64,000 bases of DNA from Hymenobacter yonginensis (GTDB lineage: Bacteria; Bacteroidota; Bacteroidia; Cytophagales; Hymenobacteraceae): positions 4,464,501 to 4,528,500 of the forward strand of contig NZ_CP115396.1 of the NCBI RefSeq assembly GCF_027625995.1. Direction: 5' to 3'. Position numbers and translations under genes: made by a program. Under the pieces are notes generated by a model that was given only the letters and a program-made list of their open reading frames with translations, searched no databases and had not been told where the DNA came from. Within the stretch, counting starts at the first letter, position 1, and each line of letters begins with the position of its first letter. Shown here piece by piece: positions 9,424-39,224 of the stretch.

Positions 9424-9444
9424 TGTGAGCCTGTTATTGGACTC
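9424..9444. other. attL: 21-bp direct repeat of tRNA-Thr 3' end
   Basis: The sequence is identical to 39148-39168 and in the same orientation. It is the distal copy of the tRNA-Thr 3' end. Outside it lies the chromosomal terminator; inside it, the repressor gene. Confidence 0.9.
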
Positions 9445-9486: not shown

Positions 9487-9520
9487 GCCGCTATCAGTAG
9501 ATAAGCGGCTGTTCATTTTT
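9487..9520. terminator. Hairpin with T tract between attL and the repressor gene
   Basis: GCCGCT (9487-9492) pairs with AGCGGC (9504-9509), and TTCATTTTTAT follows on the + strand. It lies directly after the repressor stop on the - strand and may insulate the element from rightward chromosomal transcription. Confidence 0.5.
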
Positions 9521-10409
9521 ATAGGGGGGCGTCAGAGGGGGAGTCTTCTTCCAGATGGCGTAGAACCTCCACTTTATCGAAGCCCAGCTTGTCGATGACT
9601 TCCCACAGCCGCTCCACCGTCACGTCGGGCGTGCTGGGCAGATACGTGCTGATATAGCCGCGCACCCGCCACAATTCCATGATGTCCGCCGAGTCTACCG
9701 GATAGGGCCGGCAGTGCGGGTTGTCAGAATGCAACAGGACTTCCTCGGTGCGGCTGGCTATCCGCTTCCGGATACGCTTCAGCATCACAGCCTCCGACGT
9801 CACCACCACATAGATTTCGTTTGGTATCAGCAGACGCCAGTTATCCACGTAGCTGCATACTACGATGTCGTTGTGGTTGAGCGTTGGCTCCATGGAATCC
9901 CCGGACACCTCAAACGCCCGGTACTTGCCCCGCTCAAACCGGGGCAGCCGGTAGCGGGGCAGGTCGCTGACGAATACCGCCTCGGTGTGCTGCACCGTGT
10001 AGCCGGCCTGGGCGTTGACGGGCACCAGCTCCGTGTTTTCCTCTCCGTCCTTGTCCACCGTCACCACCAGCACGCCCCCGCTGTTTACCACCAGTTGCCC
10101 ATCGTGGGCCACCAGCGGGGCCACCAATGGGGCTGCCAGCGTGGGGACTGGCTGCACGCTCCCCATCAACATAGGCCCTGACCCCAGCATCAGCCACGCC
10201 GGCGACACCTCCGGAAACGCCTGCAGTATCTCTACCAGAGTTGGGTAGCTGGGCGCTGAGCCCTGTAGAATTTTATACAGCCTGCTGGTGTTACTGTAGC
10301 CCAGTTTTCGGCTGGCACTATTCGCATTCAGGTTGTAATGGTCGAAGATTCCCTTGATGCGGGTTACTACATCAGTAGATTGTGCTACTGTTTCTGAAGT
10401 TCGTTCCAT
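9519..10409 (-). CDS. Phage-type repressor: HTH plus S24 (LexA/CI-like) peptidase
   Basis: This 296-residue repressor would hold the element dormant and cleave itself upon RecA activation after DNA damage. The N-terminal ~70 residues form a helix-turn-helix (SASRKLGYSNTSRLYKILQG). The C-terminal half is an S24 peptidase: putative cleavage site Ala135-Gly136 (NAQAGYT), catalytic Ser172 (SGDSMEPTL) and Lys211 (AVMLKRI). It faces a small + strand gene across a 104-bp region with operator-like repeats, the layout of a lysogeny switch. It is the leftmost gene of the element. SOS control is inferred from the family. Confidence 0.92.
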   Translation of the reverse strand: MERTSETVAQSTDVVTRIKGIFDHYNLNANSASRKLGYSNTSRLYKILQGSAPSYPTLVEILQAFPEVSPAWLMLGSGPMLMGSVQPVPTLAAPLVAPLVAHDGQLVVNSGGVLVVTVDKDGEENTELVPVNAQAGYTVQHTEAVFVSDLPRYRLPRFERGKYRAFEVSGDSMEPTLNHNDIVVCSYVDNWRLLIPNEIYVVVTSEAVMLKRIRKRIASRTEEVLLHSDNPHCRPYPVDSADIMELWRVRGYISTYLPSTPDVTVERLWEVIDKLGFDKVEVLRHLEEDSPSDAPL

Positions 10410-11705: not shown

Positions 11706-12304
11706 ACCAGCAACTCGCCCCCATCGTCGGCCCCGAGGCCGCTACGTCCCTCATCCGCATCCAGAAAGCCCGCATCAAGGACTACCAGCTGCAGGCCGAA
11801 TTCACCGAGCAGCGCGACGCGGAGGCCCCGGCCCGCGCCTTCACGCTCACCAGCCCGGAGCTGATTCACCCCGACCTGCACCACCGCTTCGCCCGCCTCG
11901 TCCCGCACCTGTGCCTGCTCTGCGAGCAGCTCACCGAAACCCCCGACTTCTGGCCCGACGACGAGGCCGAGGAACTGCCCGCGCACTTCGACAGCTTCAG
12001 CGTTACAGGCCTGAGCCTGGGCCGCAGCGGGGGAGGGGTCACGCTCATCGGCCAGCGCCGCCTGTCCGGCAACCGGGTGCTCAACCTCACCAGCCCCTAC
12101 GTGACCTACGACGACGAAACCGGCTCCGAATACGCCTATGCCGGCCTGCTGGAAACCGCCGTGCAGGACGCCCTGACGGAAGTGGAAGCCGCCCTGCGCG
12201 GCAAGCACAGCGACGCCGGCAAGCAGCTCGAGCTGTTCGCGACGGCCAGCGGCTTCACGGCTATTGACGAGCCGTTTATTCCCCTCAGCGCGGCCCATGC
12301 ATGA
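11702..12304 (+). CDS. Hypothetical early-operon protein
   Basis: This 200-residue protein has no recognised family. It is predicted soluble, acidic in the middle (DDEAEELPAHFDS) and has a C-terminal helix (AVQDALTEVEAALRG). It is translationally coupled to the methyltransferase-like gene (ATGA at 11702) and to the replication-type gene (4-bp overlap at 12301). Its place in the operon suggests a role in DNA metabolism or replication, but nothing in the sequence proves this. Confidence 0.65.
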   Translation: MNQQLAPIVGPEAATSLIRIQKARIKDYQLQAEFTEQRDAEAPARAFTLTSPELIHPDLHHRFARLVPHLCLLCEQLTETPDFWPDDEAEELPAHFDSFSVTGLSLGRSGGGVTLIGQRRLSGNRVLNLTSPYVTYDDETGSEYAYAGLLETAVQDALTEVEAALRGKHSDAGKQLELFATASGFTAIDEPFIPLSAAHA

Positions 12305-13323
12305 ACTACGTACAGCACACCCGCGCCGCCCACGAGCGCCTGAGCACCCGGCCCGAGGCCCGGCCCCACCACGTCAGCCTCTACTGGGCCCTGTTCTACC
12401 AGTGGAACGCCGCCCGCTTCCCCTACGAGTTGCCCCTCAACCGGGCTGAGGTGATGACCGCCGCCCACATCGGCAACCGGGGAACCTACCTCAGCACCCT
12501 GCAGGACCTCCACGCCTGGGGCATGATTGTCTACCTCCCGAGCCACAGCGGCGGCAGCGCGGTACGGCTTCGGGTAACGGGAGAGGTTGTACCAGAAGTG
12601 GGACAACCAAAGCCCGCCGGTTGTACCAGAAATGGTACGACTGAACCTGCTGAGGTTGTACCAGAAGTGGGACAACGGTTGTACCAGAAGTGGGCCGACC
12701 AATCGGGGGAGGTTGTACCAGAAGTGGGCCAACCCTCCTTATATGGTAAAACAGGTTGTAGTGTAAACGGTGTAAACGGTGCCGCCGCCCCGCACCAAAA
12801 AAAAATTGCGGTGCTGGAAGGCGAAGGGTTTTCAGGGGCGGAACTGCTCGACGACACCGCCCCGCCCACCGGTGCAGACCCGGCCCCAACGTCAGCCCCC
12901 AAAAAGAAAGTTGCGCCAAAGAAAAAGGGGGTAAAGCAGGCCGCCATTCGCGCAGCTGCCACCTCCGACCCTGACCGCCCGGCCCGGCGGGGCCGGCAGC
13001 AGCTTCCCGAGCTACCCTTTGCCGAATCCGAGCTGGCCGACGTGGAGAAGTTCATTCAGGCCTTCGACGGTACCGACTACCAGCTGGCTGATTTACGCTT
13101 CTACCACGCCAGGATTCAGGCCTGGCGCGACCGGAAGACCGGCGAGCCGCCCCGGCGCCGCGACTGGAAAGCCTGCGCCACGCAATTCTTCCTCAACGAT
13201 GCCCATGAAAACCGCCTCAAACTCGCTCCCAACGTCCAGCGCCGCCCCGATGGCACCCTCCACCAGCAACCGGCCGGAAGTGGCCTTGCTGGCACTGGCT
13301 ACGTCTCCAAGTGGGATAGGTGA
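12301..13323 (+). CDS. Replication-initiator-like winged-helix protein with internal iterons
   Basis: This 340-residue protein has an N-terminal winged-helix-like domain (HVSLYWALFYQWN, about 24-36; MTAAHIGNRGTYLSTLQDL, about 52-70) of a type common in Bacteroidota mobile elements. A low-complexity middle (about 95-235) includes a Lys-rich stretch (PKKKVAPKKKG). The C-terminal domain has DVEKFIQAF and RRRDWKACATQFF. The middle is encoded by five 24-bp DNA repeats at 12585-12734 that fall in all three reading frames. This layout resembles lambda gene O, where the initiator gene contains its own origin. The replication role is therefore inferred from domain type, position in the early operon and iterons. 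It overlaps the next gene. Confidence 0.7.
   Translation: MNYVQHTRAAHERLSTRPEARPHHVSLYWALFYQWNAARFPYELPLNRAEVMTAAHIGNRGTYLSTLQDLHAWGMIVYLPSHSGGSAVRLRVTGEVVPEVGQPKPAGCTRNGTTEPAEVVPEVGQRLYQKWADQSGEVVPEVGQPSLYGKTGCSVNGVNGAAAPHQKKIAVLEGEGFSGAELLDDTAPPTGADPAPTSAPKKKVAPKKKGVKQAAIRAAATSDPDRPARRGRQQLPELPFAESELADVEKFIQAFDGTDYQLADLRFYHARIQAWRDRKTGEPPRRRDWKACATQFFLNDAHENRLKLAPNVQRRPDGTLHQQPAGSGLAGTGYVSKWDR
12585..12734. repeat. Five iteron-like 24-bp repeats (candidate replication origin)
   Basis: Copies begin at 12585, 12619, 12654, 12677 and 12711, with consensus GGTTGTACCAGAAGTGGG plus (A/C)CAACC. Start-to-start spacings are 34, 35, 23 and 34 bp, close to two or three helical turns. Each copy is an imperfect palindrome (GGTTGT...ACAACC). 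The copies fall in three different reading frames of the host gene, so selection appears to act on DNA, not protein. Confidence 0.85.
12735..12800. other. A+T-rich segment next to the iterons (candidate unwinding element)
   Basis: Directly after the fifth repeat comes a locally A+T-rich stretch (TTATATGGTAAAACAGG), then a 9-bp tandem repeat GTGTAAACG (12761-12769 and 12770-12778), and an A9 run lies at about 12797. Iteron origins usually have such an unwinding region beside the repeats. The function here is inference. Confidence 0.45.
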
Positions 13324-14071
13324 GCTGGCCAGAACCTCCAACCCTGCCGCCCGCCTGATGCTGGCCGAGGTGTCGGTGGGCCTCACGCCCACCCAGGCCG
13401 CGGCCGCCCCCAAGCTGTTCCAGCTGAAGCGGACGTTAGGGGAGGAGGTAGTCGTGAAGCTGCTGGTGGTCATCCTGCGCGCCTTCGTCGACAGCGTGCG
13501 CGTAGCCGACAAGCCCGACGCCGCCGACATCCTGGAGCTGGCCGACACGCTGGCCCAGACCTACACCCACGACAGCGTAAAGGACCTCATTCTGGCCCTC
13601 AAACAGGCCCGCACCACCGGCACCAGATTCTTCAACGCCCTCGACCCGGCCACCATCTACGGCCTCATCAGCCAGTATTTTGACAAGAAGGCGCAGCACC
13701 TAGAAAACGGCCACCTCGACCAAAAAACGCAGGCCATCAGCCAGGAGGCCGTCACCCTCCACCAGCTGCAGCAGGCGGCTCCCGCACTGGTGCAGTCCGT
13801 GGCCCTGATGATTCCCGCCAGCCACCCCAACGCCCAACACCTGCGCGACAAGCTCACCCTCATCAAGCAGAAATACCGCCGCGGCCTGCTGAGTATGGAA
13901 CAAGCTGCTCAACAACGCCAGGAGGTGCAGCAGGCCATCCAACGCCACCCCCGGCCCGACTGGCAGCCCTCCGAAGCCGCCCGGCAGCAGATAACCCGGC
14001 GCCACCAGCAGGCCACCCGCCGCTTCGCTGAGAAGCTGGGCATCGAGAACCCGAAGTACCTCGGCGCATGA
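13205..14071 (+). CDS. Hypothetical protein of the replication operon
   Basis: A soluble, mostly helical protein of about 288 residues with no certain family. The core (SVKDLILALKQARTTGTRFFNALDPATIYGL) resembles Bacteroidota phage proteins that sit after replication genes. The C-terminus is highly charged and helical (QQITRRHQQATRRFAEKLG) and may bind nucleic acid. The start is uncertain: ATGs at 13199, 13205 and 13250 all overlap the end of the initiator gene, and an earlier open frame from 13019 reads out of frame through that gene and is unlikely to be translated. It is coupled by ATGA to the next gene. Confidence 0.65.
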   Translation: MKTASNSLPTSSAAPMAPSTSNRPEVALLALATSPSGIGELARTSNPAARLMLAEVSVGLTPTQAAAAPKLFQLKRTLGEEVVVKLLVVILRAFVDSVRVADKPDAADILELADTLAQTYTHDSVKDLILALKQARTTGTRFFNALDPATIYGLISQYFDKKAQHLENGHLDQKTQAISQEAVTLHQLQQAAPALVQSVALMIPASHPNAQHLRDKLTLIKQKYRRGLLSMEQAAQQRQEVQQAIQRHPRPDWQPSEAARQQITRRHQQATRRFAEKLGIENPKYLGA

Positions 14072-17133: not shown

Positions 17134-20100
17134 ATGGAATACAAGATGCATTTAACAATAAAAAAACAATTATTTGATACCTTATTACTCATTGGCATAG
17201 GCATTTTGCTACCAGTCGCCGCTCTTGCTCAGGAAAGGGTTTACAGGCCTACATGGGATAATATGATGCCAGTGGCTCCATCAGCGTTTCAGTTTGCGAA
17301 GTACGCGGATGTCCCTGTAAACGAGTACACTGGCATTCCTGATATATCTGTTCCAATTCATGATTTGGTAGTGGACGATATCACTATTCCCATCAGATTA
17401 CAGTATCACAGTGGTGGAATAAAAGTTAGCGAGGAAGCCAGCTGGGTCGGCCTTGGATGGGATATGCAATTTGGCAGTGTCGTGCAGATGGTCAATGACT
17501 GTGACGATTACGGGACAAGGCTTGGGAATCCCATAGAGAAGCTATTACCTGCCTATATCGGCAATCCTGTTCCTTATAGAGTTCCTCTGCGTTATCAGTA
17601 TCCGTTTAGTATAGCCGGTCAGGCGTGGTCAAATCCATATCCGGTAATACAGCCCCAACCTGTTCACGCTTTTTGCCGGGTAGTTGACAATTTTGCGCCA
17701 TTCCAGTCAGGTGAATTCAATACACAAGTAGACTGGGCACAAGGTGAAAGTCTGGATACCGAGCCGGATGTTTTTAAAGCTAATTTCTTTGGGCATTCGC
17801 TCAATTTTATACGTGATTTTGCCACAGGTAATATAGTAGTCCTTAATAAAAAGGGCTACTTAGTTAGGCGGAATAGTAACAATGCCTCGAATAGTGATTC
17901 TTGGGAGATAATTACTCCCAATGGAGATTTGTTTATTTTTTCTGAAAGAATAGTTAGTGAAACAAAATCATTCAGTGATGGATTTGAAGGTCCACTGTCT
18001 TGGAACTATAAAGTGTCTTCTAAAACATGGATGATATCGGAAGTGAAGACTAAAAATAAAAAATCAGTACGCTTTAGTTATAATAGAAGTCCAGTGCACG
18101 AATTGCAGCCATCTTTCTCGCAGAGATGGGTGAAGGTTGCGACGGATCCTTGTCGTGGATATTCGCCCAACTCTACTGGATATTCTATGAATTTATCTGC
18201 AACACCCAATGCTGGACTGCAAATTCCAACTGTACCTACAACGTATACTACTAAACTAGTGACCAGGCAGGATTATCTTCTAGTGTCACGAATTGATTTT
18301 CCTCAAGGTTTTGTAAATTTTGAGCTTTCCAGTCGAGATGATTTAGAGTATGGAAAAAAGCTGGATAAGATTGTCGTGAGTTCAGATTTTAATAGAAAAG
18401 AGTTTGCTTTTAACTACAGTTATTTTAACTCATCGCAGGTAGGAGGGAATGGATTCTCTGTAAATGACGTAAATGGAAATTACGAAAACCTTCGTCTCAA
18501 GCTTCTTTCATTTAAAGAAATAGGTGCTCCGGAATATGTATTTCATTATAATCAAACCTCACTTCCTAGAAAAAGATCTTTTGCGCAAGATATATGGGGT
18601 AATTATAATGGTGCTCTTTCAAATCAATCACTTATTCTGAATCCAAGTTATTTCAAAAGACCAGAAATAGGTGTGATTAATAATAATGTTTCTGCTAATC
18701 CACAAACGGCTCAGGCGTGTGTTTTGCAATCAATGCAATATCCGACAGGTGGGCATGCTTCTTTTTTTTATGAATTAAACCAGTTTGATAACTACTGGGT
18801 TCCAGATTTTGCTAATAATATTAACTCTATCACTACTGGAAATGGTCTCAGGATAAGAAAGATAGAGAGGAAAACTGCGAATATTATAGAAGCTACTGAG
18901 TATGAATATTATGGTGGTATTAGTGTTTTGCATAAAGAATTGTTTCGTGAATTGTTTATGCCTACAGCATTGGCGTCTGGAAATGGTATATCAGTTTGTG
19001 ATAATTATATCAGCGAGCTCAATTCTTCCGGGTATAGTGCCGCAAATCAAATGGGGTCTATTACCGGAGTAGGGTACTCTAGAGTAGTCAAAAAGAATAT
19101 AAAAGACAGTATGCACAATGGATACATAGTTACCTATTTTGCTAATAGCCCTGATATTGCATCTCAGACAGCCTCGCATCTTGCAACTTCAAGTGTGACG
19201 CTTCCCTCTATAAAGGAAATTGATTTTGAAAGTAATGGAAGTGTTGATTCTGTCTTTTACTATAATAAGAATGACGTTTTGGTAAGGAAAGTATGTAACA
19301 ATTATTTTAATAGCAAGTCATCAATATTTTATGGGGCTAAAGTATTGCCTCACTCTAACTATTGGTACTATAGTACCTGGAGTGAAGGTGGATTTTGGGA
19401 TTATAAATCAGAAATATTGATTGCTTTCACACCAATATTTGATATCGAAACACTGCTCTCTGGTTCAAGTGAAACAAACTATAGCGGTGGTAGTGCTTTT
19501 AATATTAAGAGGTATTTTGCGTATAACTCACTCAATTTGCAGGAAAAGATTACAACTGTAGTTTCAGGAAATGAAAGTAAAAAAGAGGAGGTGCTAATAA
19601 AGTATGCAGGTAGCTCTGATCTACCGGCGAATGCTGGGGTGATAGCTTTATTATCTGCTAATAGGGTTAATCAGATTGTTTCAATGAAAAGAAAATTTAT
19701 TAATACAGTAAATTCAAGTGTTATTGAAAGAGAAGTATATAGTTACGACCGTACTTTTCAAGTTATGAATGACAAAATAGTGGAATCAACTGCTTCTGAA
19801 AAGCCAGGGGGGGTATCTACAGTAAATCCTAGAGTATATGTATATGAAAAATATGACCCTACAAACGCTAATCTGTTGCAGTATAGAATGCTCAATGATG
19901 TGCCTTCTTCGATGATTTGGAGTCGCAATGACTACATCATGTGCGCAGTGAAAAATGCAGGATATTCACAGATTGCTTATTCAAGTTTTGAGCCAAATAG
20001 CACGGGGCGATTTAAATATGACTCGCTATATTCCCATATTGTTGCAGGGGGTAGGACGGGGCGCTATTGCTATCGGCTAGATTCCTTCTGGGGAGTTAGT

Positions 20101-20511
20101 CGTAGTAATCTTCCCGCTGATACCTACGAGTTAACTTTTTGGGCTACTCAACGCCCTGTTATCTATGTTGGACAGGCGTACGCTAGTCCTGTAAGCGAGC
20201 AAATCGTGGCTTCGGGTGTTGGAAGCTGGAAGCAATATGTGCTCCGGCTTAATTTGCCAGCTAACAGTACGATCAATATTGATGCTGCTTCCCCCAACAC
20301 ACCTATTCTCTTGGACGAAGTGCGCCTATATCCTGCGCGAGCTCAGATGAGCACATTCGTTACAGAACAACTTCGGGGCATGACTTCGCAGTCCGATAAA
20401 TCAGGCCGCAACATGCAATACGAATATGACGGTCTAAGCCGTCTGCTACGCGTGCGCGATGAGCAAAACCGTGTACTTACTGAGCAAGAGTATCACTACG
20501 CCCGCCCCTAA
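17134..20511 (+). CDS. Large secreted RHS-associated protein (YD-repeat family), first of a pair
   Basis: This protein of about 1125 residues begins with a signal peptide (LLLIGIGILLPVAALAQ). It then shows the N-terminal pattern of Bacteroidota RHS proteins: PVNEYTGIPDISVPIHDL, then LQYHSGGIKVSEEASWVGLGW (about 62-110). The C-terminus has a YD repeat (MQYEYDGLSRLLRVRDEQNRVL, about 1090-1112). It ends without a toxin domain. The gene is A+T-rich, unlike the flanking phage genes, which suggests separate transfer. It is followed 74 bp later by the toxin-bearing RHS gene; such two-gene layouts are common in this phylum. An ATG at 17146 is an alternative start. Confidence 0.82.
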   Translation: MEYKMHLTIKKQLFDTLLLIGIGILLPVAALAQERVYRPTWDNMMPVAPSAFQFAKYADVPVNEYTGIPDISVPIHDLVVDDITIPIRLQYHSGGIKVSEEASWVGLGWDMQFGSVVQMVNDCDDYGTRLGNPIEKLLPAYIGNPVPYRVPLRYQYPFSIAGQAWSNPYPVIQPQPVHAFCRVVDNFAPFQSGEFNTQVDWAQGESLDTEPDVFKANFFGHSLNFIRDFATGNIVVLNKKGYLVRRNSNNASNSDSWEIITPNGDLFIFSERIVSETKSFSDGFEGPLSWNYKVSSKTWMISEVKTKNKKSVRFSYNRSPVHELQPSFSQRWVKVATDPCRGYSPNSTGYSMNLSATPNAGLQIPTVPTTYTTKLVTRQDYLLVSRIDFPQGFVNFELSSRDDLEYGKKLDKIVVSSDFNRKEFAFNYSYFNSSQVGGNGFSVNDVNGNYENLRLKLLSFKEIGAPEYVFHYNQTSLPRKRSFAQDIWGNYNGALSNQSLILNPSYFKRPEIGVINNNVSANPQTAQACVLQSMQYPTGGHASFFYELNQFDNYWVPDFANNINSITTGNGLRIRKIERKTANIIEATEYEYYGGISVLHKELFRELFMPTALASGNGISVCDNYISELNSSGYSAANQMGSITGVGYSRVVKKNIKDSMHNGYIVTYFANSPDIASQTASHLATSSVTLPSIKEIDFESNGSVDSVFYYNKNDVLVRKVCNNYFNSKSSIFYGAKVLPHSNYWYYSTWSEGGFWDYKSEILIAFTPIFDIETLLSGSSETNYSGGSAFNIKRYFAYNSLNLQEKITTVVSGNESKKEEVLIKYAGSSDLPANAGVIALLSANRVNQIVSMKRKFINTVNSSVIEREVYSYDRTFQVMNDKIVESTASEKPGGVSTVNPRVYVYEKYDPTNANLLQYRMLNDVPSSMIWSRNDYIMCAVKNAGYSQIAYSSFEPNSTGRFKYDSLYSHIVAGGRTGRYCYRLDSFWGVSRSNLPADTYELTFWATQRPVIYVGQAYASPVSEQIVASGVGSWKQYVLRLNLPANSTINIDAASPNTPILLDEVRLYPARAQMSTFVTEQLRGMTSQSDKSGRNMQYEYDGLSRLLRVRDEQNRVLTEQEYHYARP

Positions 20512-20585
20512 GTCGGCAGGTTGGCCTCAAATCCCTGGGCCTTTTTGTTTCCTCTCCTTGCCATCTTACGTTACGCTCGCCAGTT

Positions 20586-23500
20586 ATGCATCTCTTTAAT
20601 CACTTTGGTACACGTTTGCGGATTCTCTTTTGTGTTTTGTTGATTTGTGGCATAAACACACCGGTTTGGAGCCAAATGCCCGGTTCCGAAGGCTTAGTCC
20701 CAGACTCCACGGAACTACGCGTGTTACGGGAGTTCTATTACGCCACAGGCGGTCCGACATGGAATAATAATTACCACTGGCTGCTCGGCACCACCATGGC
20801 CGATGTTCGGTATCAGCAGTGGGAGGGTGTTACCATCACGAATGGAGATGTGACGGCATTGCGCAGCTTCAATAATTTCTTGCAAGGTACATTGCCTGCT
20901 AGCTTGGGTCTGCTCTCCCAACTCACTCTGCTCCAGATTACTAATGCTAACGGGTTACATGGTCCCTTACCTCGCGAATTAGGAAATTTACGCAAACTCC
21001 AATACTTACATATTAATACAAGTGCACTTACTGGTTCCATCCCAGCTGAATTGGGGCAACTAAGCCAACTTATCGAATTGAAGCTAACGAATAGTCGATT
21101 TTCAGGGCCTATTCCCCCTGAGCTTGGGCAACTGCAGCTACTGACACGTCTTGATTTAATGGGATGGCCTTCCAATTATAATGTACCCCGCTTAACAGGA
21201 GGTCTGCCGCCATCGCTTGGGCAGTTAACCAATCTCACGTATTTGAATGTAGCCAATCATCAAATTGCCGGACTGATTCCCAGTTCATTAATTCAGCTTA
21301 CTCGGCTGCAGTACCTGCAGCTTGACCATAATCAACTTACTGGAGCCATACCCCCGGGATTAGCGCAGCTGCCACAACTCTATACTATCTTACTTTCTGA
21401 CAATAACCTAACAGATGTCCCTTCATGGGTAGCGTTTTACCCGCGGCAGTTACCTAGTATTGACGTGCAGCGCAACTATTTGGACTTTGCCGTTGTAGAG
21501 CGACAGTTCTTTTCTGCTAATACGCCCTTGGCTCAATACAAGTACTCCCCACAGAAGACGCTGCCGGGAGTGGATACCGTGGAGTTTGTGGTGGGAGATA
21601 CACTCAAGCTGAGTGGAACAATTGGTGGGGAGCATAATCAATACCAGTGGGAGCGACGTATCGATACTACCTGGACAGCTGTGGTTGGTGCCACCTCGGC
21701 TGTAAGGCATATAGCTGCTGCATCAGCTGCTGAGGAGGGCCTGTACCGCACCCGCGTAACCAGTGGCTGGATTGATTATCGGGCAAACCCCAATATTCCA
21801 GTGATGTGGCTATACTCCAAAACAGTGTATGCCAAAGCCAAAGTACCCTGTGCACCGCTCACGCTCACAGCTTCGCCCAACGTAAGTATCCCCACCGGCG
21901 ACGCGGTAGTGCTGCGTGCCTACCCAGGCCAGGATGGCGCCATACTTCAATGGAGCCCAGCCACCGGACTGAGCACCACCACGGGTGCGGTCGTGACCGC
22001 AGCCCCCACCGTAACAACCACCTATACCGTAACGGCCACCACCACCGGCGCCTGCCCGGCCACCACCCAGGCTACCGTGCGGGTAACCGTGACGCCGCCG
22101 CTGGCGCTGAGCAATCCGCCGGTGGACGGCTGCGTGCCGACTCTCATTAATACACCGCCTACCCCCCGGCCCCCCGGCGCGGCAGATGCCGTAAACTACG
22201 TGCGCACCTACACGGCCCGGGCCGCCTACACCAACCCGGCCCGCCTGCGGGCGGCTGTCGTGGACTCGGTGCAGGTGAAAACGGAGTACCTCGATGGGCT
22301 GGGACGCCCGGTGCAAACCGTGCTGCGGCAGGAGTCGCCCGACCGGCACGACCTCGTGCAGCCCATAGTCTACGACGAGCTGGGCCGCCAGCACCGGCAG
22401 TACCTGCCGTATGTAGCCAGTGCTGCGCCCGACCCTGTCGGGTACTACCCCCGGGCGCTGACCGAGCAATACGCCTTCTACCGGGAAACGCCGATTGGCC
22501 CAGGCTTTGCCACCGACCGTATCGCCCGCACAGGCGTGCCGTTCAGCGAGACGGTGTTCGAGGCTTCCCCCCTCAACCGGGTTATAGAGCAGGCGGCCCC
22601 CGGCGAAACCTGGCGCCTTGGCGCGGACCACACGGTCACGCAGGAGCAACGGCCCAACACGGCCGCCGACGGTATTCCACGTTACGAGCCCGGGTATGAT
22701 ATTCCCACGGCGCTAACCTACCAAGGAGCATACCCAGCCGGCGAATTATGGGTAACAGAAAGCCGCGACGAGCGGGGCTTCCGCACCCAGGAATTCAAAG
22801 ACAAGCAAGGCCAAGTAGTAGCCAAACGGGTGGAGTGTCCGCCCCCCACGCAGAACACGCCCGGGCAAGCCACGCCTACGTGGCTGACGACACTCTATGT
22901 CTATGATGACTTTGGGCGTCTGCGCACGGTGGTGCCACCCAAGGCCTTCGTGCGCTTGCCGGCCGCCAACTGGGAAGTGACTGGTACGGTGGAGAACCTG
23001 CTGTTTCGCTACCGCTACGACGAGCGCGGCCGGGTAGTCGGCAAGAACGTACCGGGCCAGACCGGCGAAACCCAACTGGTGTATGACCAACTGGACCGGC
23101 CGGTAATGAGCCAGGACCCGGAGCAGCGTCGCCGCCGCGAGTGGGCCTGGACCAAGTACGATGCGTTGGGCCGGGTGGTAATGACGGGTCTAACGATCCG
23201 CAATGTGAGTCAGGTCACAGCCCAGACCGAGGCCAACAACTGGTTAACGCCTGGTACGGCGCAGTACACGGCGCAGAATCGGCTGTATGAGCAGCGCACG
23301 GCAAACGCCACATACTCCATGCGCATTACTTCGCAGCAGGCGTATCCGCCCATGAGCACCCGCGGCTACTCGGCCGGCCCCATCCTGACGGCCACCTACT
23401 ATGACGACTACGACTACGACCAGAACGGCCAGCCCGACGTGGCCTTCGACACCCAATACAACGCGCAGTTTGCCAGCGGCCAGGCGCCCGTAGCCGACCT

Positions 23501-26408
23501 GCGCACTACCGGTATGCCTACCCGCACCAAGACGCGGGTACTGGGCGTGCCCGCCACCGACCCGAATGCGTGGCTGACGGTAACCACTTTTTACGACGAA
23601 AAAGCCCGTCCCGTGCAGGTTCGCAGCACCAACGCCCGCGGCGGCGAAGATGTGGTGACCACCCAACTGGACTTTGCCGGCAAAGTCATCAAGAGCTATG
23701 CCACGCATACAGTCCCCAGCCTGTCAGTGGCGCTGGCGGTGGCCGAGAACTTCACCTACGACCATGCGGGCCGCTTGAAGAAAGCGCAGCAACAGCTGCC
23801 GGGCGAAGCCCAGCCCGCCCTCATTGCTGAGCCCCGCTACAACGAGTTGGGCCAGTTGGTGACCAAAACGCTGGCCCCCGGCACGCCCCTGGAGCAGCGC
23901 GTGGACTTCGCCTACAACATCCGCGGCTGGCTCACCCACATCAACGACCCGGCCCTGTCCGACCCCTCGGACTTATGGGGCATGCAGCTTAGCTACGACT
24001 GCGGCTTCCAGGTGCCCCAGTACACGGGCAACATCGCCGGCCAGAAGTGGCGCAGCAAAAGCGACGGCATAGAGCGGGCCTACGGCTACCTCTACGATGG
24101 CGCCAGCCGCCTGCTCAGCGGCGACTTCGTGGCCCGCAACGCCGCCACCCAGGCCTGGACCGCCGAGCGCCAGCGCTATGGTCTCTCCGGTATGCGCTAT
24201 GACGAGAACGGCAACATCCTGGGCCTGCAGCGCCGCGGCCTGCTGGCCCAAGCCACCCGCACTGCCCCTGCGCAGTTCGGCGCTACGGACAACCTGAGCT
24301 ACACTTACACCGGCAACCGCCTGACCCGCGTCGACGATGCCGTCACCACTAACGCGCTGCCCCGCCCGGCCGGTTACAACGGCGCGCCTACCTCACTGGC
24401 CGGCGACTTCCAGGAAGAAGGCGTACGCCAGGCCGGCGAGTACCGCTACGACGACAATGGCAACCTGACGTCCGATGCCAACAAGCGCATCACGGCCATC
24501 GTCTACAACCACCTGAACCTGCCCCGCCGCATCGTCTTCGGCACCGGCGCCGACAGCATCGTGTTCCGCTATACGGCCGCCGGCCAGAAGGTGCTCAAGC
24601 GCGTCTACCAGACGGGCAAGCCGCTGGTGCAGACCGACTACCTGGGGGCCTACCAGTACGAAGCCGACAGCCTGCGCTTCTTCCCCCACGCTGAAGGCCG
24701 CGTGCTGCGCCGCGTACAGTTCGACGCGGCGGGCCAACCCATCGTCAGCTACCGCAGAGAGTACAGCCTCAAAGACCACCTGGGCAACCTGCGCGTGGCC
24801 TACAAGCTCGGCGACCCGGCCCGGTTCCGGGCCACAATGGAGCTGGCCGACTCGGCCCGCGAAGAACGTCAGTTTGAGTACGTGCGCCAGACACGTCACG
24901 CCACGGCCGTGGCCCGCTCAGGCCAGCACGTAGCCCGTCTCAACGCCGCTACCGGCCAGCCGCTGGGCCCACTCAAAATCGTGTCCGTGCAGAAAGGCGA
25001 TACAGTAACCTTCACCGCGCCGGGCCTGTATCAACAGACCGTACGCAATATCAGTTTCGGCTTCTCGTTGCCCGGTTTCGTGGCCAGCTTGCTGCTACAG
25101 CCTGCTCCGGCACCAGTCGTGGGGCCGGATGGGCGGCCCAAACCGCGGGCCTTGCCTTTCTTGGGCGTCGGCTTGGGGCTGGTGCCGGCCCTGAACCAGA
25201 GCGGGCGCATCCCGAAAGGTTATGCGCGGCTGCTGGTCTACAACCAAGACTCGGTGCTGGTTGACTCGTATACCCAGCAGCTTAGCGCGGCGGCACTCAA
25301 TAACTATGAGCAACTGCGTCTGCGGGTCATTGCGCCCAGCGCGGGCTACGTGACGGCCTACGTGGGCAACGAAAGTGACGTGGACGTGTTCTTTGATGAG
25401 GTGCAGCTCGACTATGGGCCGGCGCTGCTGGTGCAAGAGAATCAGTATGACCCGTTCGGGTTAAACCTAGCCGGAATCGAAAAGCAAGGACAACCCAATC
25501 ATCAATTCCAGTACAATGGCAAAGAGAAGCAGGAGGAATTAGGGCTAAACTGGACGGATTACGGAGCTAGGATGTATGATGCGCAACTGGGAAGGTGGCA
25601 TGCGGTGGACCCAATGGCGGAAAAATATCCAGACATATCACCCTATGCTTATGTAGCGAATAATCCAGTTAACTTCGTCGATCCAGATGGTAAACAAATT
25701 GATCCTGGTAGTCAAAAAGACTGGGATAAGCAGAAGCAAGCCACTATCGATCGGAGAGATAAGTTGCAGAATAAGATAGATAAGTTAACAGAAAAAGCTG
25801 AAGAGAAAGGATGGAGTGCTGATAAGCTAGCAGGTAAAATGGGCAATTTAGGTGACAGGGTATCAAGTTTGAATGGAAGTATTGCCAATTTGGGTGTTTT
25901 AGAAAAGAGTACTCAAGTGTATAGTCTTCGAACTGGTGCAGCAGAATTGGGTGGTAATTCTTATGATTCTAAGACTGGAAACATTGTGATAAGTTTTAAA
26001 ACAACTGCAAACTTCATTCACGAAATCACCCATGCTGGTCAGTATGAAGCAAGCAATATTGCTTTTAGCTCTAGCGGAGCCACACTTGGTCAAGATGTAT
26101 CCGATGAAGTAGCAGCATACAAAGCACAATTTGCGTACGACCCATCTTCCGTATCCGGACTATCTTCTACGGTAGTAGCAAATTCTTTTGCAGCAATTAC
26201 ATCCTCTTGGGTGCAGGGCATACGATTATCAAATGGAAGTCTTCCTTACGCTCCAGGAGGTTCATCTAATACAGGATTAGTTCCTGTAAATATTAATTCA
26301 ACGCGAGATATCTTAATCCAAGCATATCCACATGCTGCAGAATCATTTAAGGGATTACCAGCAAATTATACCCTAAAATCAATTCCCGGAATCCGTTACA
26401 AAAAATAA
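20586..26408 (+). CDS. RHS/YD-repeat polymorphic toxin with LRR N-terminus and metallopeptidase-like C-terminus
   Basis: This 1940-residue protein has the following order. First is a signal peptide (to VWS|Q). Next come plant-type leucine-rich repeats (GSIPAELGQLSQL, about 85-290) and an Ig/PKD-like domain (about 421-505). A DUF6443-type start of the RHS part follows (VKTEYLDGLGRPVQTVL, about 535-640), then many YD repeats. The RHS-associated core lies at about 1618-1700 (NQYDPFGLN; YGARMYDAQLGRWHAVDP; NNPVNFVDPDGK). The last ~240 residues form the toxin: helical, then HEITH (His1812, Glu1813, His1816) and DEVAAY (Glu1841), as in gluzincin-like metallopeptidases. The DNA is GC-rich over the RHS core and drops to A+T-rich from about 25,450, the mark of a swapped toxin tip. 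A small lipoprotein gene follows by 10 bp. Confidence 0.9.
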   Translation: MHLFNHFGTRLRILFCVLLICGINTPVWSQMPGSEGLVPDSTELRVLREFYYATGGPTWNNNYHWLLGTTMADVRYQQWEGVTITNGDVTALRSFNNFLQGTLPASLGLLSQLTLLQITNANGLHGPLPRELGNLRKLQYLHINTSALTGSIPAELGQLSQLIELKLTNSRFSGPIPPELGQLQLLTRLDLMGWPSNYNVPRLTGGLPPSLGQLTNLTYLNVANHQIAGLIPSSLIQLTRLQYLQLDHNQLTGAIPPGLAQLPQLYTILLSDNNLTDVPSWVAFYPRQLPSIDVQRNYLDFAVVERQFFSANTPLAQYKYSPQKTLPGVDTVEFVVGDTLKLSGTIGGEHNQYQWERRIDTTWTAVVGATSAVRHIAAASAAEEGLYRTRVTSGWIDYRANPNIPVMWLYSKTVYAKAKVPCAPLTLTASPNVSIPTGDAVVLRAYPGQDGAILQWSPATGLSTTTGAVVTAAPTVTTTYTVTATTTGACPATTQATVRVTVTPPLALSNPPVDGCVPTLINTPPTPRPPGAADAVNYVRTYTARAAYTNPARLRAAVVDSVQVKTEYLDGLGRPVQTVLRQESPDRHDLVQPIVYDELGRQHRQYLPYVASAAPDPVGYYPRALTEQYAFYRETPIGPGFATDRIARTGVPFSETVFEASPLNRVIEQAAPGETWRLGADHTVTQEQRPNTAADGIPRYEPGYDIPTALTYQGAYPAGELWVTESRDERGFRTQEFKDKQGQVVAKRVECPPPTQNTPGQATPTWLTTLYVYDDFGRLRTVVPPKAFVRLPAANWEVTGTVENLLFRYRYDERGRVVGKNVPGQTGETQLVYDQLDRPVMSQDPEQRRRREWAWTKYDALGRVVMTGLTIRNVSQVTAQTEANNWLTPGTAQYTAQNRLYEQRTANATYSMRITSQQAYPPMSTRGYSAGPILTATYYDDYDYDQNGQPDVAFDTQYNAQFASGQAPVADLRTTGMPTRTKTRVLGVPATDPNAWLTVTTFYDEKARPVQVRSTNARGGEDVVTTQLDFAGKVIKSYATHTVPSLSVALAVAENFTYDHAGRLKKAQQQLPGEAQPALIAEPRYNELGQLVTKTLAPGTPLEQRVDFAYNIRGWLTHINDPALSDPSDLWGMQLSYDCGFQVPQYTGNIAGQKWRSKSDGIERAYGYLYDGASRLLSGDFVARNAATQAWTAERQRYGLSGMRYDENGNILGLQRRGLLAQATRTAPAQFGATDNLSYTYTGNRLTRVDDAVTTNALPRPAGYNGAPTSLAGDFQEEGVRQAGEYRYDDNGNLTSDANKRITAIVYNHLNLPRRIVFGTGADSIVFRYTAAGQKVLKRVYQTGKPLVQTDYLGAYQYEADSLRFFPHAEGRVLRRVQFDAAGQPIVSYRREYSLKDHLGNLRVAYKLGDPARFRATMELADSAREERQFEYVRQTRHATAVARSGQHVARLNAATGQPLGPLKIVSVQKGDTVTFTAPGLYQQTVRNISFGFSLPGFVASLLLQPAPAPVVGPDGRPKPRALPFLGVGLGLVPALNQSGRIPKGYARLLVYNQDSVLVDSYTQQLSAAALNNYEQLRLRVIAPSAGYVTAYVGNESDVDVFFDEVQLDYGPALLVQENQYDPFGLNLAGIEKQGQPNHQFQYNGKEKQEELGLNWTDYGARMYDAQLGRWHAVDPMAEKYPDISPYAYVANNPVNFVDPDGKQIDPGSQKDWDKQKQATIDRRDKLQNKIDKLTEKAEEKGWSADKLAGKMGNLGDRVSSLNGSIANLGVLEKSTQVYSLRTGAAELGGNSYDSKTGNIVISFKTTANFIHEITHAGQYEASNIAFSSSGATLGQDVSDEVAAYKAQFAYDPSSVSGLSSTVVANSFAAITSSWVQGIRLSNGSLPYAPGGSSNTGLVPVNINSTRDILIQAYPHAAESFKGLPANYTLKSIPGIRYKK

Positions 26409-37696: not shown

Positions 37697-39001
37697 TCAG
37701 GCCGCCGAGGGCTCCACGGCGCAAATCTGGCTGTCCAGGGCCCCGGCGTTGTCCGTCGCCCCCTGACCCTCCCAGATGCGCCGCATAGTGTGGTGCTGGA
37801 AGTCTTCCACAATCTTGGCGTAGATGAGCGTGGTCTGGATTTTCTTGTGCCCCAGCACCTTTTGCAGCACCTCCACCGGCATGCCGCGCAGCAGGCTTTG
37901 CGTAGCGAACGTATGCCGGGCCGTGTGCATGGTCACCAGCTCACACTTGGGCACCGCCGCCCGCACGATGCCCCCGTCCCCCGTACTTACCAGGTCCGCC
38001 GCCGCCGTCAGGCCGGCCAGCTTCGCTACCCGTTTCAGGTACTTGTTCATCACCTGGTTCGGGTGTACCGGCAGCAGCCGCAACCGCTCCGGGTCGGCGT
38101 ACTTGTCCAGAATGGCCGCAGCCGCCGCCGTCAGGTAGATGCTCACGCCGGCCCGCGTCTTGCTCTGCACCAGCCGCAGCACCCGCCCGCCGCTCCACTC
38201 CTGCACGTTGCCCGCATGCAGGGCCACCACGTCGGAGTAGCGCAGGCCCGTGTAGCAGCAAAACAGAAACACGTCCCGCGTGGCCACCAGATTGGCCGGC
38301 AGCATCGCGGCGCCCAGCGCCTGCAGGTCCGCCGCCGACAGGTACAGCTTCGGCGAGTCGGCCGGCTTCGCCACTAGCTTCCGCAGCTCGATGCCCACCG
38401 CCACGCCCCGCTCGTCGCGCAGAAACCGCAGGAAGGACTTCAGGTCTTTGACCGCCGTGTAGAGCGTATTCGGCGCCAGCTTCCGCACTTCCCGCAGGTA
38501 GCCCAGCAGCGCGTCGTGCTGCGCCAGGTTGTAGGATGCCGGGTCCAGTAGTTGCCCGCTCCACTGCTCGTAGCCCGTAAACCAGTTGCGGGCCACCACA
38601 TGCTGCCGCAGCGTTTCCCCCGAGTACCCCCGCGCCCGCATCGACTGCCGGTATTCCTCGTACCACACCGCCACCGGCCGCGTTCGGGCTTCATTGGCCG
38701 GCTCGCGCTCCGGCCGGAGCGCCGCTTTCAGCCCCGCCACCGTGGGTGCCTGTCCGGCTGCCCGCACCCCGCGCCACCATTTCAGCACGTTGCCCGCCAT
38801 CAGCTGCAGCAGGTCATTGGCTTCCTCGGCCAGCGGGTAAGAGCGTCTGAATTCCTGTCGGTCTGCGTTCCAGTCGGCTGGCTTGCATTTCTCACCAGTG
38901 GAACATTTCAGGCGGGCCCCGTCGAAGTAACAGAGCAGATGCACCGGGCATCTTCCCGCTTTGTCTTTCTTGTCGGTGCGAAGCGTGAATTGGGTAACCA
39001 T
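37697..39001 (-). CDS. Tyrosine integrase of the element
   Basis: This 434-residue site-specific recombinase would insert and excise the element at tRNA-Thr. It has an N-terminal arm-binding domain (FTLRTDKKDKAGRCPVHLL), a core-binding domain (about 105-205) and the catalytic domain with Arg254 (TGLRYSDV), Lys281 (QSKTR), His359 and Arg362 (HTARHTFA), His385 (LGHKKIQTT) and Tyr394 (IYAKI). The ATG at 39001 was chosen; upstream codons run into the tRNA terminator. The start lies 150 bp from attR, the usual position, and all six residues are intact. Confidence 0.95.
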   Translation of the reverse strand: MVTQFTLRTDKKDKAGRCPVHLLCYFDGARLKCSTGEKCKPADWNADRQEFRRSYPLAEEANDLLQLMAGNVLKWWRGVRAAGQAPTVAGLKAALRPEREPANEARTRPVAVWYEEYRQSMRARGYSGETLRQHVVARNWFTGYEQWSGQLLDPASYNLAQHDALLGYLREVRKLAPNTLYTAVKDLKSFLRFLRDERGVAVGIELRKLVAKPADSPKLYLSAADLQALGAAMLPANLVATRDVFLFCCYTGLRYSDVVALHAGNVQEWSGGRVLRLVQSKTRAGVSIYLTAAAAAILDKYADPERLRLLPVHPNQVMNKYLKRVAKLAGLTAAADLVSTGDGGIVRAAVPKCELVTMHTARHTFATQSLLRGMPVEVLQKVLGHKKIQTTLIYAKIVEDFQHHTMRRIWEGQGATDNAGALDSQICAVEPSAA

Positions 39002-39084
39002 AAAAAGGGGGCGTAACAGGGGGCGAGCTTCCCGCCCCCAAGTGGAAGATTCGCGCCCAGAGTTACCGATACCCCCAGACGCAA

Positions 39085-39130
39085 AAAACCCGGAAACCCA
39101 CTTTCGCAGCGCGAGAAGCAAGTTTCCGGG
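39085..39130 (-). terminator. Terminator between tRNA-Thr and the integrase gene
   Basis: CCCGGAAAC (39089-39097) pairs with GTTTCCGGG (39122-39130). Read leftward, TTTTTTGC follows. It lies just inside attR and would end the tRNA-Thr transcript before the integrase gene. It resembles the chromosomal hairpin outside attL. Confidence 0.8.
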
Positions 39131-39147: not shown

Positions 39148-39168
39148 TGTGAGCCTGTTATTGGACTC
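39148..39168. other. attR: 21-bp direct repeat overlapping tRNA-Thr 3' end
   Basis: Identical to 9424-9444. It spans the tRNA acceptor and T-arm 3' side plus 4 bases downstream, so insertion left the tRNA intact. Confidence 0.9.
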
Positions 39169-39224
39169 GAACCAACGACCTGCTCATTACGAATGAGCTG
39201 CTCTACCAACTGAGCTAAACAGGC
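39152..39224 (-). tRNA. tRNA-Thr (anticodon CGU)
   Basis: The 73-nt cloverleaf reads on the - strand. The acceptor GCCTGTT pairs with AACAGGC. A D arm with AGCTCAGTTGGTAGAGC, an anticodon stem GCTCA/TGAGC with loop TTCGTAA (anticodon CGT), and a T arm GTTGG-TTCGAGT-CCAAT follow. CCA is not encoded. It serves as the integration site of the element to its left. Confidence 0.95.

Follow-up and report, generated by a model that had tools for sequence, protein, structure and literature searches.

We analysed a window of 64,000 nucleotides (nt), the whole stretch of DNA considered here, from Hymenobacter yonginensis (contig NZ_CP115396.1, positions 4,464,501 to 4,528,500 of the forward strand). The window contains an integrative element, within which lies a gene of the replication-initiator type (12301-13323, + strand, 340 amino acids), so classified by its homologues and by its winged-helix N-terminal (N) domain. 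In the scheme that we consider likely, this gene encodes the replication initiator and the DNA of its linker, predicted to be disordered, is the origin of the element. The N domain would bind five semi-palindromic iterons in that DNA, one subunit reading each half-site with its recognition helix and wing (as covariation suggests), the initiator assembly would open the adjoining A+T-rich TAAAC repeats of 9 base pairs (bp), the product of the following gene and the C-terminal (C) domain would recruit the host replicative helicase (as the gene order suggests), and a mirror-symmetric purine motif with a GTTGCGCC centre would be the third cis element of the same origin. The latter would expose a single strand, by our best structural guess via an intramolecular triplex. 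Layout, neighbours and relatives point to such an origin role. An earlier note on this DNA had reported the iterons and had read them as an origin inside an initiator gene: the observation is confirmed and the interpretation is supported. The gain for the mobile elements of Bacteroidota, the replication of which has, to our knowledge, been little studied, would be an origin that can be tested, a pattern of residue-to-base specificity and a family of initiators that lacks a Pfam match.

The initiator gene and its homologues

The AlphaFold2 model divides the protein into a winged helix (residues 3-91; the part coding for residues 1-92 lies at 12301-12576, + strand), a linker and a small helical C domain (approximately residues 238-305; 13012-13215, + strand). 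Block means of the predicted local distance difference test (pLDDT) range from 83 to 94 over residues 1-80, the mean is 57 at residues 81-90, which form much of the wing, and nearly all of residues 94-230 have low confidence; the linker is predicted to be disordered. Homologues were matched at 37 loci in genome contigs and in 48 of 198 relative genomes, and these collapse to 68 distinct genes, 48 of which have N and C domains of the Hymenobacter type (the window gene included). None of 35 aligned family members matches any Pfam family at an E-value of 0.01, the RepA_N profile PF06970 included. The sole PHROGs match of the window initiator is phrog_37130 (unknown function), over 14 residues, with no O-like replication PHROG, and Foldseek returned no match for the initiator model at an E-value of 0.001. 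A sequence search of the initiator against solved structures yielded three rows, which were rejected as chance-like, and none of 153 pattern-matched stretches of viral contigs encodes a relative of the protein.

The conserved following gene (13358-14071, + strand) is a candidate helicase loader, in which no Walker A motif is recognised by eye; its model is helical, and lambda P is only a weak match to it, among unrelated rows. In 60 tabulated loci (the window, L001-L019 and L068-L107, several of which are one place counted twice) a match to the following gene is found 59 times, and so is a match to the repressor, a few of the latter being weak or distant (L018, L105). The homologue in Freya_1 is annotated as 'transcriptional regulator', and the gene that comes after it as 'DNA replication protein', with a Walker-A-like GDFGNGKS. 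A homologue of the N part is found on a 25-kb circular Marivirga plasmid record that also carries an integrase (NZ_CP129969.1, 23828-24547); there, an ATPase-like reading frame with GPVGCGKT follows the homologue, and iteron-like ACAAGT and TAAAC repeats are present as well.

Iterons within the coding sequence

The five near-identical, imperfectly palindromic 24-bp repeats that had been described within the gene are present at 12585-12608, 12619-12642, 12654-12677, 12677-12700 and 12711-12734 (all on the + strand). A repeat search recovered all five; a search with the 24-mer, allowing at most 3 mismatches, gave four matches in the 64-kb window against none in 100 shuffles, the copy at 12619, which diverges more, not being counted. 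Each iteron is an imperfect inverted repeat about an A-rich centre (GGTTGTACCA-GAAG-TGGGACAACC). The start-to-start spacings of 34, 35, 23 and 34 bp and the frame offsets 2, 0, 2, 1 and 2 (284, 318, 353, 376 and 410 nt from the gene start) agree with those given earlier. Conservation in all three frames, however, holds for the window gene and not for the family, where 122 of 180 sites share one frame, 55 fall in a second and 3 in the third. Neither do the spacings suit helical phasing, as had been thought: at 10.5 bp per turn, 34-35 bp make approximately 3.3 turns and 23-24 bp approximately 2.2-2.3, so that neighbouring iterons are rotated by a similar angle and share no common face.

With a family iteron site defined by the core CAN(AA or TT)NTG, the homologues prove to carry repeats in the same linker: the 180 sites are spread over 45 of the 48 Hymenobacter-type genes, at least three of them in 36 of the 48 and up to eight in a single gene, mostly 34-35 bp apart and mid-gene. 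It is the DNA rather than the peptide that is kept. Across the 48 genes, the linkers have 61 palindromic sites where 6.2 are expected, the N parts 10 (6.2 expected) and the C parts 9 (7.2 expected); all 77 copies of CAGAAGTG fall in the linkers, with none in the N or C parts. This core is common across elements, the arms are element-specific, and the copies within one gene have like arms even in different frames; in slots that elements have in common, the arms vary between GGTTGTAC, GGTTGCCG, TTACCGGGGG, GCATCGGGGG, GTGCTTGCAC and others. The agreement of one element's arms across frames is 0.694 (170 pairs), compared with a mean of 0.580 (standard deviation (SD) 0.015, maximum 0.621) in 1000 shuffles in which arms were exchanged between elements within slots. 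Left and right arms tend to match as inverted copies, with 869 of 1440 arm positions complementary against 665.6 (SD 20) after shuffling.

Inverted arms could also form RNA hairpins in the transcript that control translation or stability, and single copies do fold well: three of the five have z-scores of -3.1, -5.9 and -2.1. Nevertheless, we hold this to be very improbable. G-U pairs show no preference (81 against 95.8 in shuffles) and are not above A-C mismatches (166 against 187.8), and for that reason a double-stranded dyad fits better than a hairpin of the transcript or of a single strand; in part of the copies it is the other strand that has the core (CACTTCTG, 12 copies beside the 77 of CAGAAGTG; CAGTTCTG, 10 copies beside 13 of CAGAACTG); and the arms resemble one another within an element and follow residues of the protein (see below), neither of which a role in structure only would need.

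The protein that reads the iterons

We scanned the variable columns of the 92 N-domain residues for covariation with three parts of the half-site consensus (outer, middle and inner), in 27 genes with N domains less than 90% alike. The inner half-site is best predicted by residues 64 (z 8.1), 61 (7.6) and 84 (6.5), and the outer by residues 48 (6.7), 64 (5.9) and 85 (5.7), all of which lie on the predicted recognition helix, the neighbouring helix 3 or the wing. Mean z for the inner half-site is 3.65 in the recognition helix and 3.05 in the wing, against 0.96 (maximum 1.9) in helix 1 and 1.52 (maximum 3.4) in helix 2. In two contrasts that were picked after inspection, 27 of 28 genes with R64 have an inner GGG against none of 17 with other residues (15 of 16 against 0 of 13 in a thinned set), and RY in the wing accompanies an outer GCA in 13 of 13 genes against 0 of 17, among the 30 genes that fit the half-site pattern (thinned, 6 of 6 against 0 of 11). 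Because the arms track residues on the predicted DNA-facing parts of the winged helix, the protein that binds the iterons is most likely the one encoded by the gene in which they lie.

What follows from binding is a matter on which covariation is silent, and the repeats could be operators for an autoregulator or other transcriptional regulator that binds its own gene and has no part in an origin; the domain is a winged helix, and the annotation of the Freya_1 homologue fits such a role. Against this stand the mid-gene arrays with up to eight sites at their recurrent spacing, the following gene that accompanies the initiator in nearly all tabulated loci and the annotated DNA replication protein beside that same Freya_1 homologue, and we judge operators to be an unlikely explanation compared with an origin.

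TAAAC repeats

The tandem GTGTAAACG that had been noticed after the iterons is present at 12761-12781 (+ strand), where the repeat search finds TAAAC with a 9-bp period, a candidate unwinding element. TAAAC pairs at 9-bp spacing occur in 11 of the 68 genes (32 sites), all mid-gene and none in the N or C parts, and single TAAAC occurs 120 times in middle parts against 7 times in N and 9 times in C parts. The use of AAC at all 32 asparagine codons of these repeats was discarded as evidence, because the observation is circular: an in-frame TAAAC forces AAC.

A mirror-symmetric purine motif

The same gene holds a second DNA-level element, absent from the earlier note, at 12901-12926 (+ strand): AAAAAGAAA / GTTGCGCC / AAAGAAAAA, i.e. 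an 8-nt centre between purine arms that mirror each other, flanked by C5 (12896-12900) and G5 (12927-12931). The arms covary as mirror images from site to site. Their lengths are equal (nL = nR) at 37 of 44 distinct sites of the viral set and at 35 of 37 sites found through the protein; overall this is so for 68 of 77 distinct sites, against a mean of 18.6 and a maximum of 31 in 5000 shuffles. The count retains the asymmetric sites of L167, L227 and L282, which share an ORF (open reading frame) of another kind. Past the first run, mirroring persists in the tails (5.91 of 8 against 5.25 in shuffles, SD 0.10, maximum 5.65), and long mirrors extend over all 20 nt shown in L263, 17 in L199 and 16 in L262 and L271. 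Of 50 genes placed on a tree, 48 have symmetric arms, and parsimony needs 15 changes of arm class; the window gene (3/3) and L040 (5/5) differ in class at 99% likeness in the tree columns. Among control 8-mers in the same flank pattern (at least three pyrimidines, no A at either end; 3.35 Mb of loci) only 8 of 33 lie between arms of equal length, against 62 of 69 for the motif, and a mirror run of at least 12 is seen in 0 of 33 against 28 of 69. When any centre is allowed between arms of n=6, at least 74 sites have three or more centre pyrimidines, and the three longest mirrors listed belong to GTTGCGCT, GTTGCGCC and GTTCCGCG. The centre variants GTTGCGCT, GTTCCGCG, CTTCCGCC and GTTTCGCA lie in initiator-like ORFs, and replication PHROGs match 3 of 4.

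In the window and other Hymenobacter genes, a C run to the left of the arms accompanies a G run of similar length to the right, which makes these runs complementary and not mirrored. L177 (centre GTTGCGCC, 4/4) and L412 (GTTCCGCG, 6/6) have initiators that are closely related by eye, and both sites are mirrored.

The motif is found across Bacteroidota, mainly in two reading frames, within many kinds of initiator gene and also in some DNA that is non-coding. Intact Hymenobacter genes have it in frame 0, those of Flavobacterium, Pontibacter, Chitinophagaceae and Cloacibacterium have it in frame 1, and four broken Hymenobacter genes carry it in other frames. The loose pattern GTTG(C/T)GC is present in 51 of the 68 genes, in at least one (L083) through an unrelated place only. 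The strict pattern occurs in 53 viral contigs and in only 2 of 296 Bacteroidota genomes, both times in initiator-type ORFs (reversed control, 0 of 296), which rules out a general, host-wide chromosomal signal. Ten motif ORFs were chosen for diversity out of 55 motif sites, and eight of these match PHROGs of the replication-initiation, replisome-organizer, primosomal or DnaD-like kinds. In L242, L212, L168 and L199 the motif lies outside any recognised initiator, and in L257 and L271 no listed ORF spans the motif. Approximately 360-870 nt upstream of the motif in L257 are ORFs that come from a long repeat array (LLLVCSWFAPG...), which suggests a large iteron array close to this non-ORF motif.

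By blastp linkage the motif ORFs, a few non-initiator ORFs included, form 16 N-part and 12 C-part clusters, and with the motif between them it could be a recombination joint for the exchange of N and C modules among initiator genes rather than part of an origin. We rate this as rather unlikely, in that crossover needs identity between molecules and not mirror symmetry of a motif's own arms, and in that copies lie outside recognisable ORFs. Those copies, in L257 and L271, also speak against the idea that the iterons and the lysine-rich stretch were selected as protein motifs of the linker, with the DNA pattern as a by-product. The linker is indeed translated in intact genes, and the peptides KVAPKK and KSCAKK recur. 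However, the repeats stand in several frames, GTTGCGCC translates as VAP in Hymenobacter (intact genes) but as SCA or GCA in Flavobacterium, Pontibacter and others, the lysine codons vary synonymously in mirrored fashion (L003 compared with L005) and the linker is predicted to be disordered, all of which makes selection for the peptide scarcely credible beside a function of the DNA.

Mirror symmetry does not fit a protein dimer on B-DNA, because a dimer needs a dyad, nor is it the signature of a hairpin; Watson-Crick structure of the motif was rejected on fold z-scores of +0.45, +0.75 and +0.97 (three examples). A Hoogsteen triplex (H-DNA), on the other hand, would demand mirror covariation. 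H-DNA is described as requiring a homopurine-homopyrimidine mirror repeat (PMC4666352), and the window motif is a homopurine mirror repeat with an 8-nt centre; it differs by its short arms (often 9-13 bp), near-invariant centre and recurrent place in initiator genes. We advance only tentatively, as possible though doubtful, that a cis element with a near-invariant 8-nt centre (GTTGCGCC; also variants such as GTTGCGCT and GTTCCGCG) and mirror-covarying purine arms is common to the origins of phages and allied elements in Bacteroidota, and that it acts as a triplex (H-DNA) whose loop is recognised and exposes a single strand for helicase loading. This, if true, would amount to genetic evidence, based on covariation, that a DNA triplex functions in replication; many kinds of initiator would carry it, that of the window included, and a debated DNA structure would gain a conserved, genetically traceable role. 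The motif may also mark replication genes and origins in phage genomes of Bacteroidota.

Several points weigh against the proposed origin and its parts. The weakest part of the proposal is the triplex, since arms of this length look short for a stable one and would call for help from a protein; moreover, the unrelated centres GAATTTTA and CTAAAAAC also mirror to 12 among the any-centre matches listed. An intact motif is missing from 18 of the 48 Hymenobacter-type genes (L051 and L083 by one change in the centre; several retain the right side only), and from the Freya_1 and Marivirga plasmid homologues. The 9-bp period of the TAAAC repeats preserves the reading frame, and these repeats may have a role in the protein. 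Finally, ancestry confounds the covariation between residues and iteron arms, although ancestry alone would leave unexplained why the top signals fall on the predicted DNA-facing surface.

In the linkers of L042, L047, L059, L060 and L102, a GC-rich stretch ending in GGCGCGCC takes the place of the left arm and GTT, with AAA on the right, apparently either a second type of motif or a decayed one. Among named phages with related N domains the motif is present in none of eight regions, two Bacteroides phages included, and it therefore does not go with the N domain as such and is not a universal feature of Bacteroidota phages. BLAST of the motif against phages gave no match, perhaps through low-complexity masking.

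Comparison with known replicons

In phage lambda the repressor lies upstream and the loader gene P next to O. The origin is within the O gene, where four 18-bp iterons are described as joined to a 38-bp A+T-rich sequence (PMC3349717). The window gene likewise holds iterons and an A+T-rich element inside an initiator gene; unlike lambda, it has five 24-bp iterons at 34-35 or 23 bp plus the 9-bp TAAAC repeats, and no sequence relation was detected between O and the window initiator. We know of no 9-bp TAAAC repeats or mirror motif in lambda.

For the RepA_N plasmid pSK41, the N-terminal domain (NTD) is described as binding four boxes central in the rep gene, the protein sequence encoded by the origin being dispensable (PMC5703833), and RepA_N iterons as direct repeats that are semi-palindromic, their inverted repeats meeting at a poly-A tract (PMC5703833, PMC7145576). 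The window repeats are similar in their position, central in a rep-type coding sequence, and in being semi-palindromic direct-repeat iterons with an A-rich centre, here converging on GAAG or CAAG; the family differs in its lack of a Pfam match in the 35 members, its occurrence in Bacteroidota and its place in an integrative element. The structures 4pt7 and 4ro3 are given as RepA NTDs (PMC7145576; the latter source also treats the RepA of a PLE satellite). In our structure comparison they rank 4 and 12, and the match to the RepA fold is tied with other winged helices. We take 4pql (rank 1) and 5kbj (rank 8) to be of the same family as the RepA NTDs. By analogy, the window initiator may work like lambda O and the RepA_N replicons, and we file it as a member of neither.

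The earlier suggestion that an origin in this type of element may be undescribed does not extend to the principle, which is known from lambda O and RepA_N, and can apply to the initiator family and the mirror motif. Within a limited survey of the PMC literature the initiator family and the composite origin are new to us, and the mirror motif could be the part that is categorically new. In that survey, the matches listed for GTTGCGCC were unrelated by title or start of abstract, SCAKKE had no match, mirror repeats together with H-DNA in a phage origin led to a eukaryotic review (judged by title), iteron origins of Bacteroidetes prophages gave unrelated titles only, and nothing was found on Hymenobacter prophage replication initiation with an integrase.

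The integrative element and its context

The element spans 9424-39168 (29.7 kb, no strand assigned), and its ends are a 21-bp direct repeat (9424-9444 and 39148-39168) that includes the 3' end of a tRNA-Thr (39151-39224). In G001, the nearest genome compared, the site is unoccupied and the two flanks adjoin with a 21-bp overlap, which identifies 9424-39168 as inserted. A CI-like repressor with an S24 peptidase domain (9519-10409, - strand; phrog_4 1.8e-18, PF00717) is encoded near one end and a tyrosine integrase beside the tRNA-Thr (37697-39121, - strand; phrog_1 2e-33, PF00589) near the other. Judging by its genes, this set (repressor, initiator, following gene and integrase at a tRNA attachment site) appears to be of the temperate phage or phage satellite type. 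Other cargo comprises a phage-type DNA methyltransferase, an endolysin, a gene resembling exonuclease VIII, a giant gene that has DUF6443 together with leucine-rich repeats, and a gene that matches spanin weakly. Among the 20 ORFs (a subset) scanned with PHROGs, none matched a family of capsid, portal or terminase proteins, and the element is probably a phage remnant or satellite.

Two giant genes occupy 17134-26408, the second being the one with DUF6443 and leucine-rich repeats and the first having a weak RHS match only; part of the first has 36% G+C against 61% in the window, and was likely acquired separately. Elsewhere in G001 (G001:C1:4164001-4226401) lies a related element in which the initiator gene is broken and five iterons occupy the same slots. 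In related elements, genes seen by eye 3' of the loader gene are presumably of defence type (type I and type III restriction-modification, DUF262-type), at 11724-18297 in L070, 10526-15822 in L007, 9932-11875 in L008 and 10028-15458 in L017, and these elements may be defence-carrying satellites.
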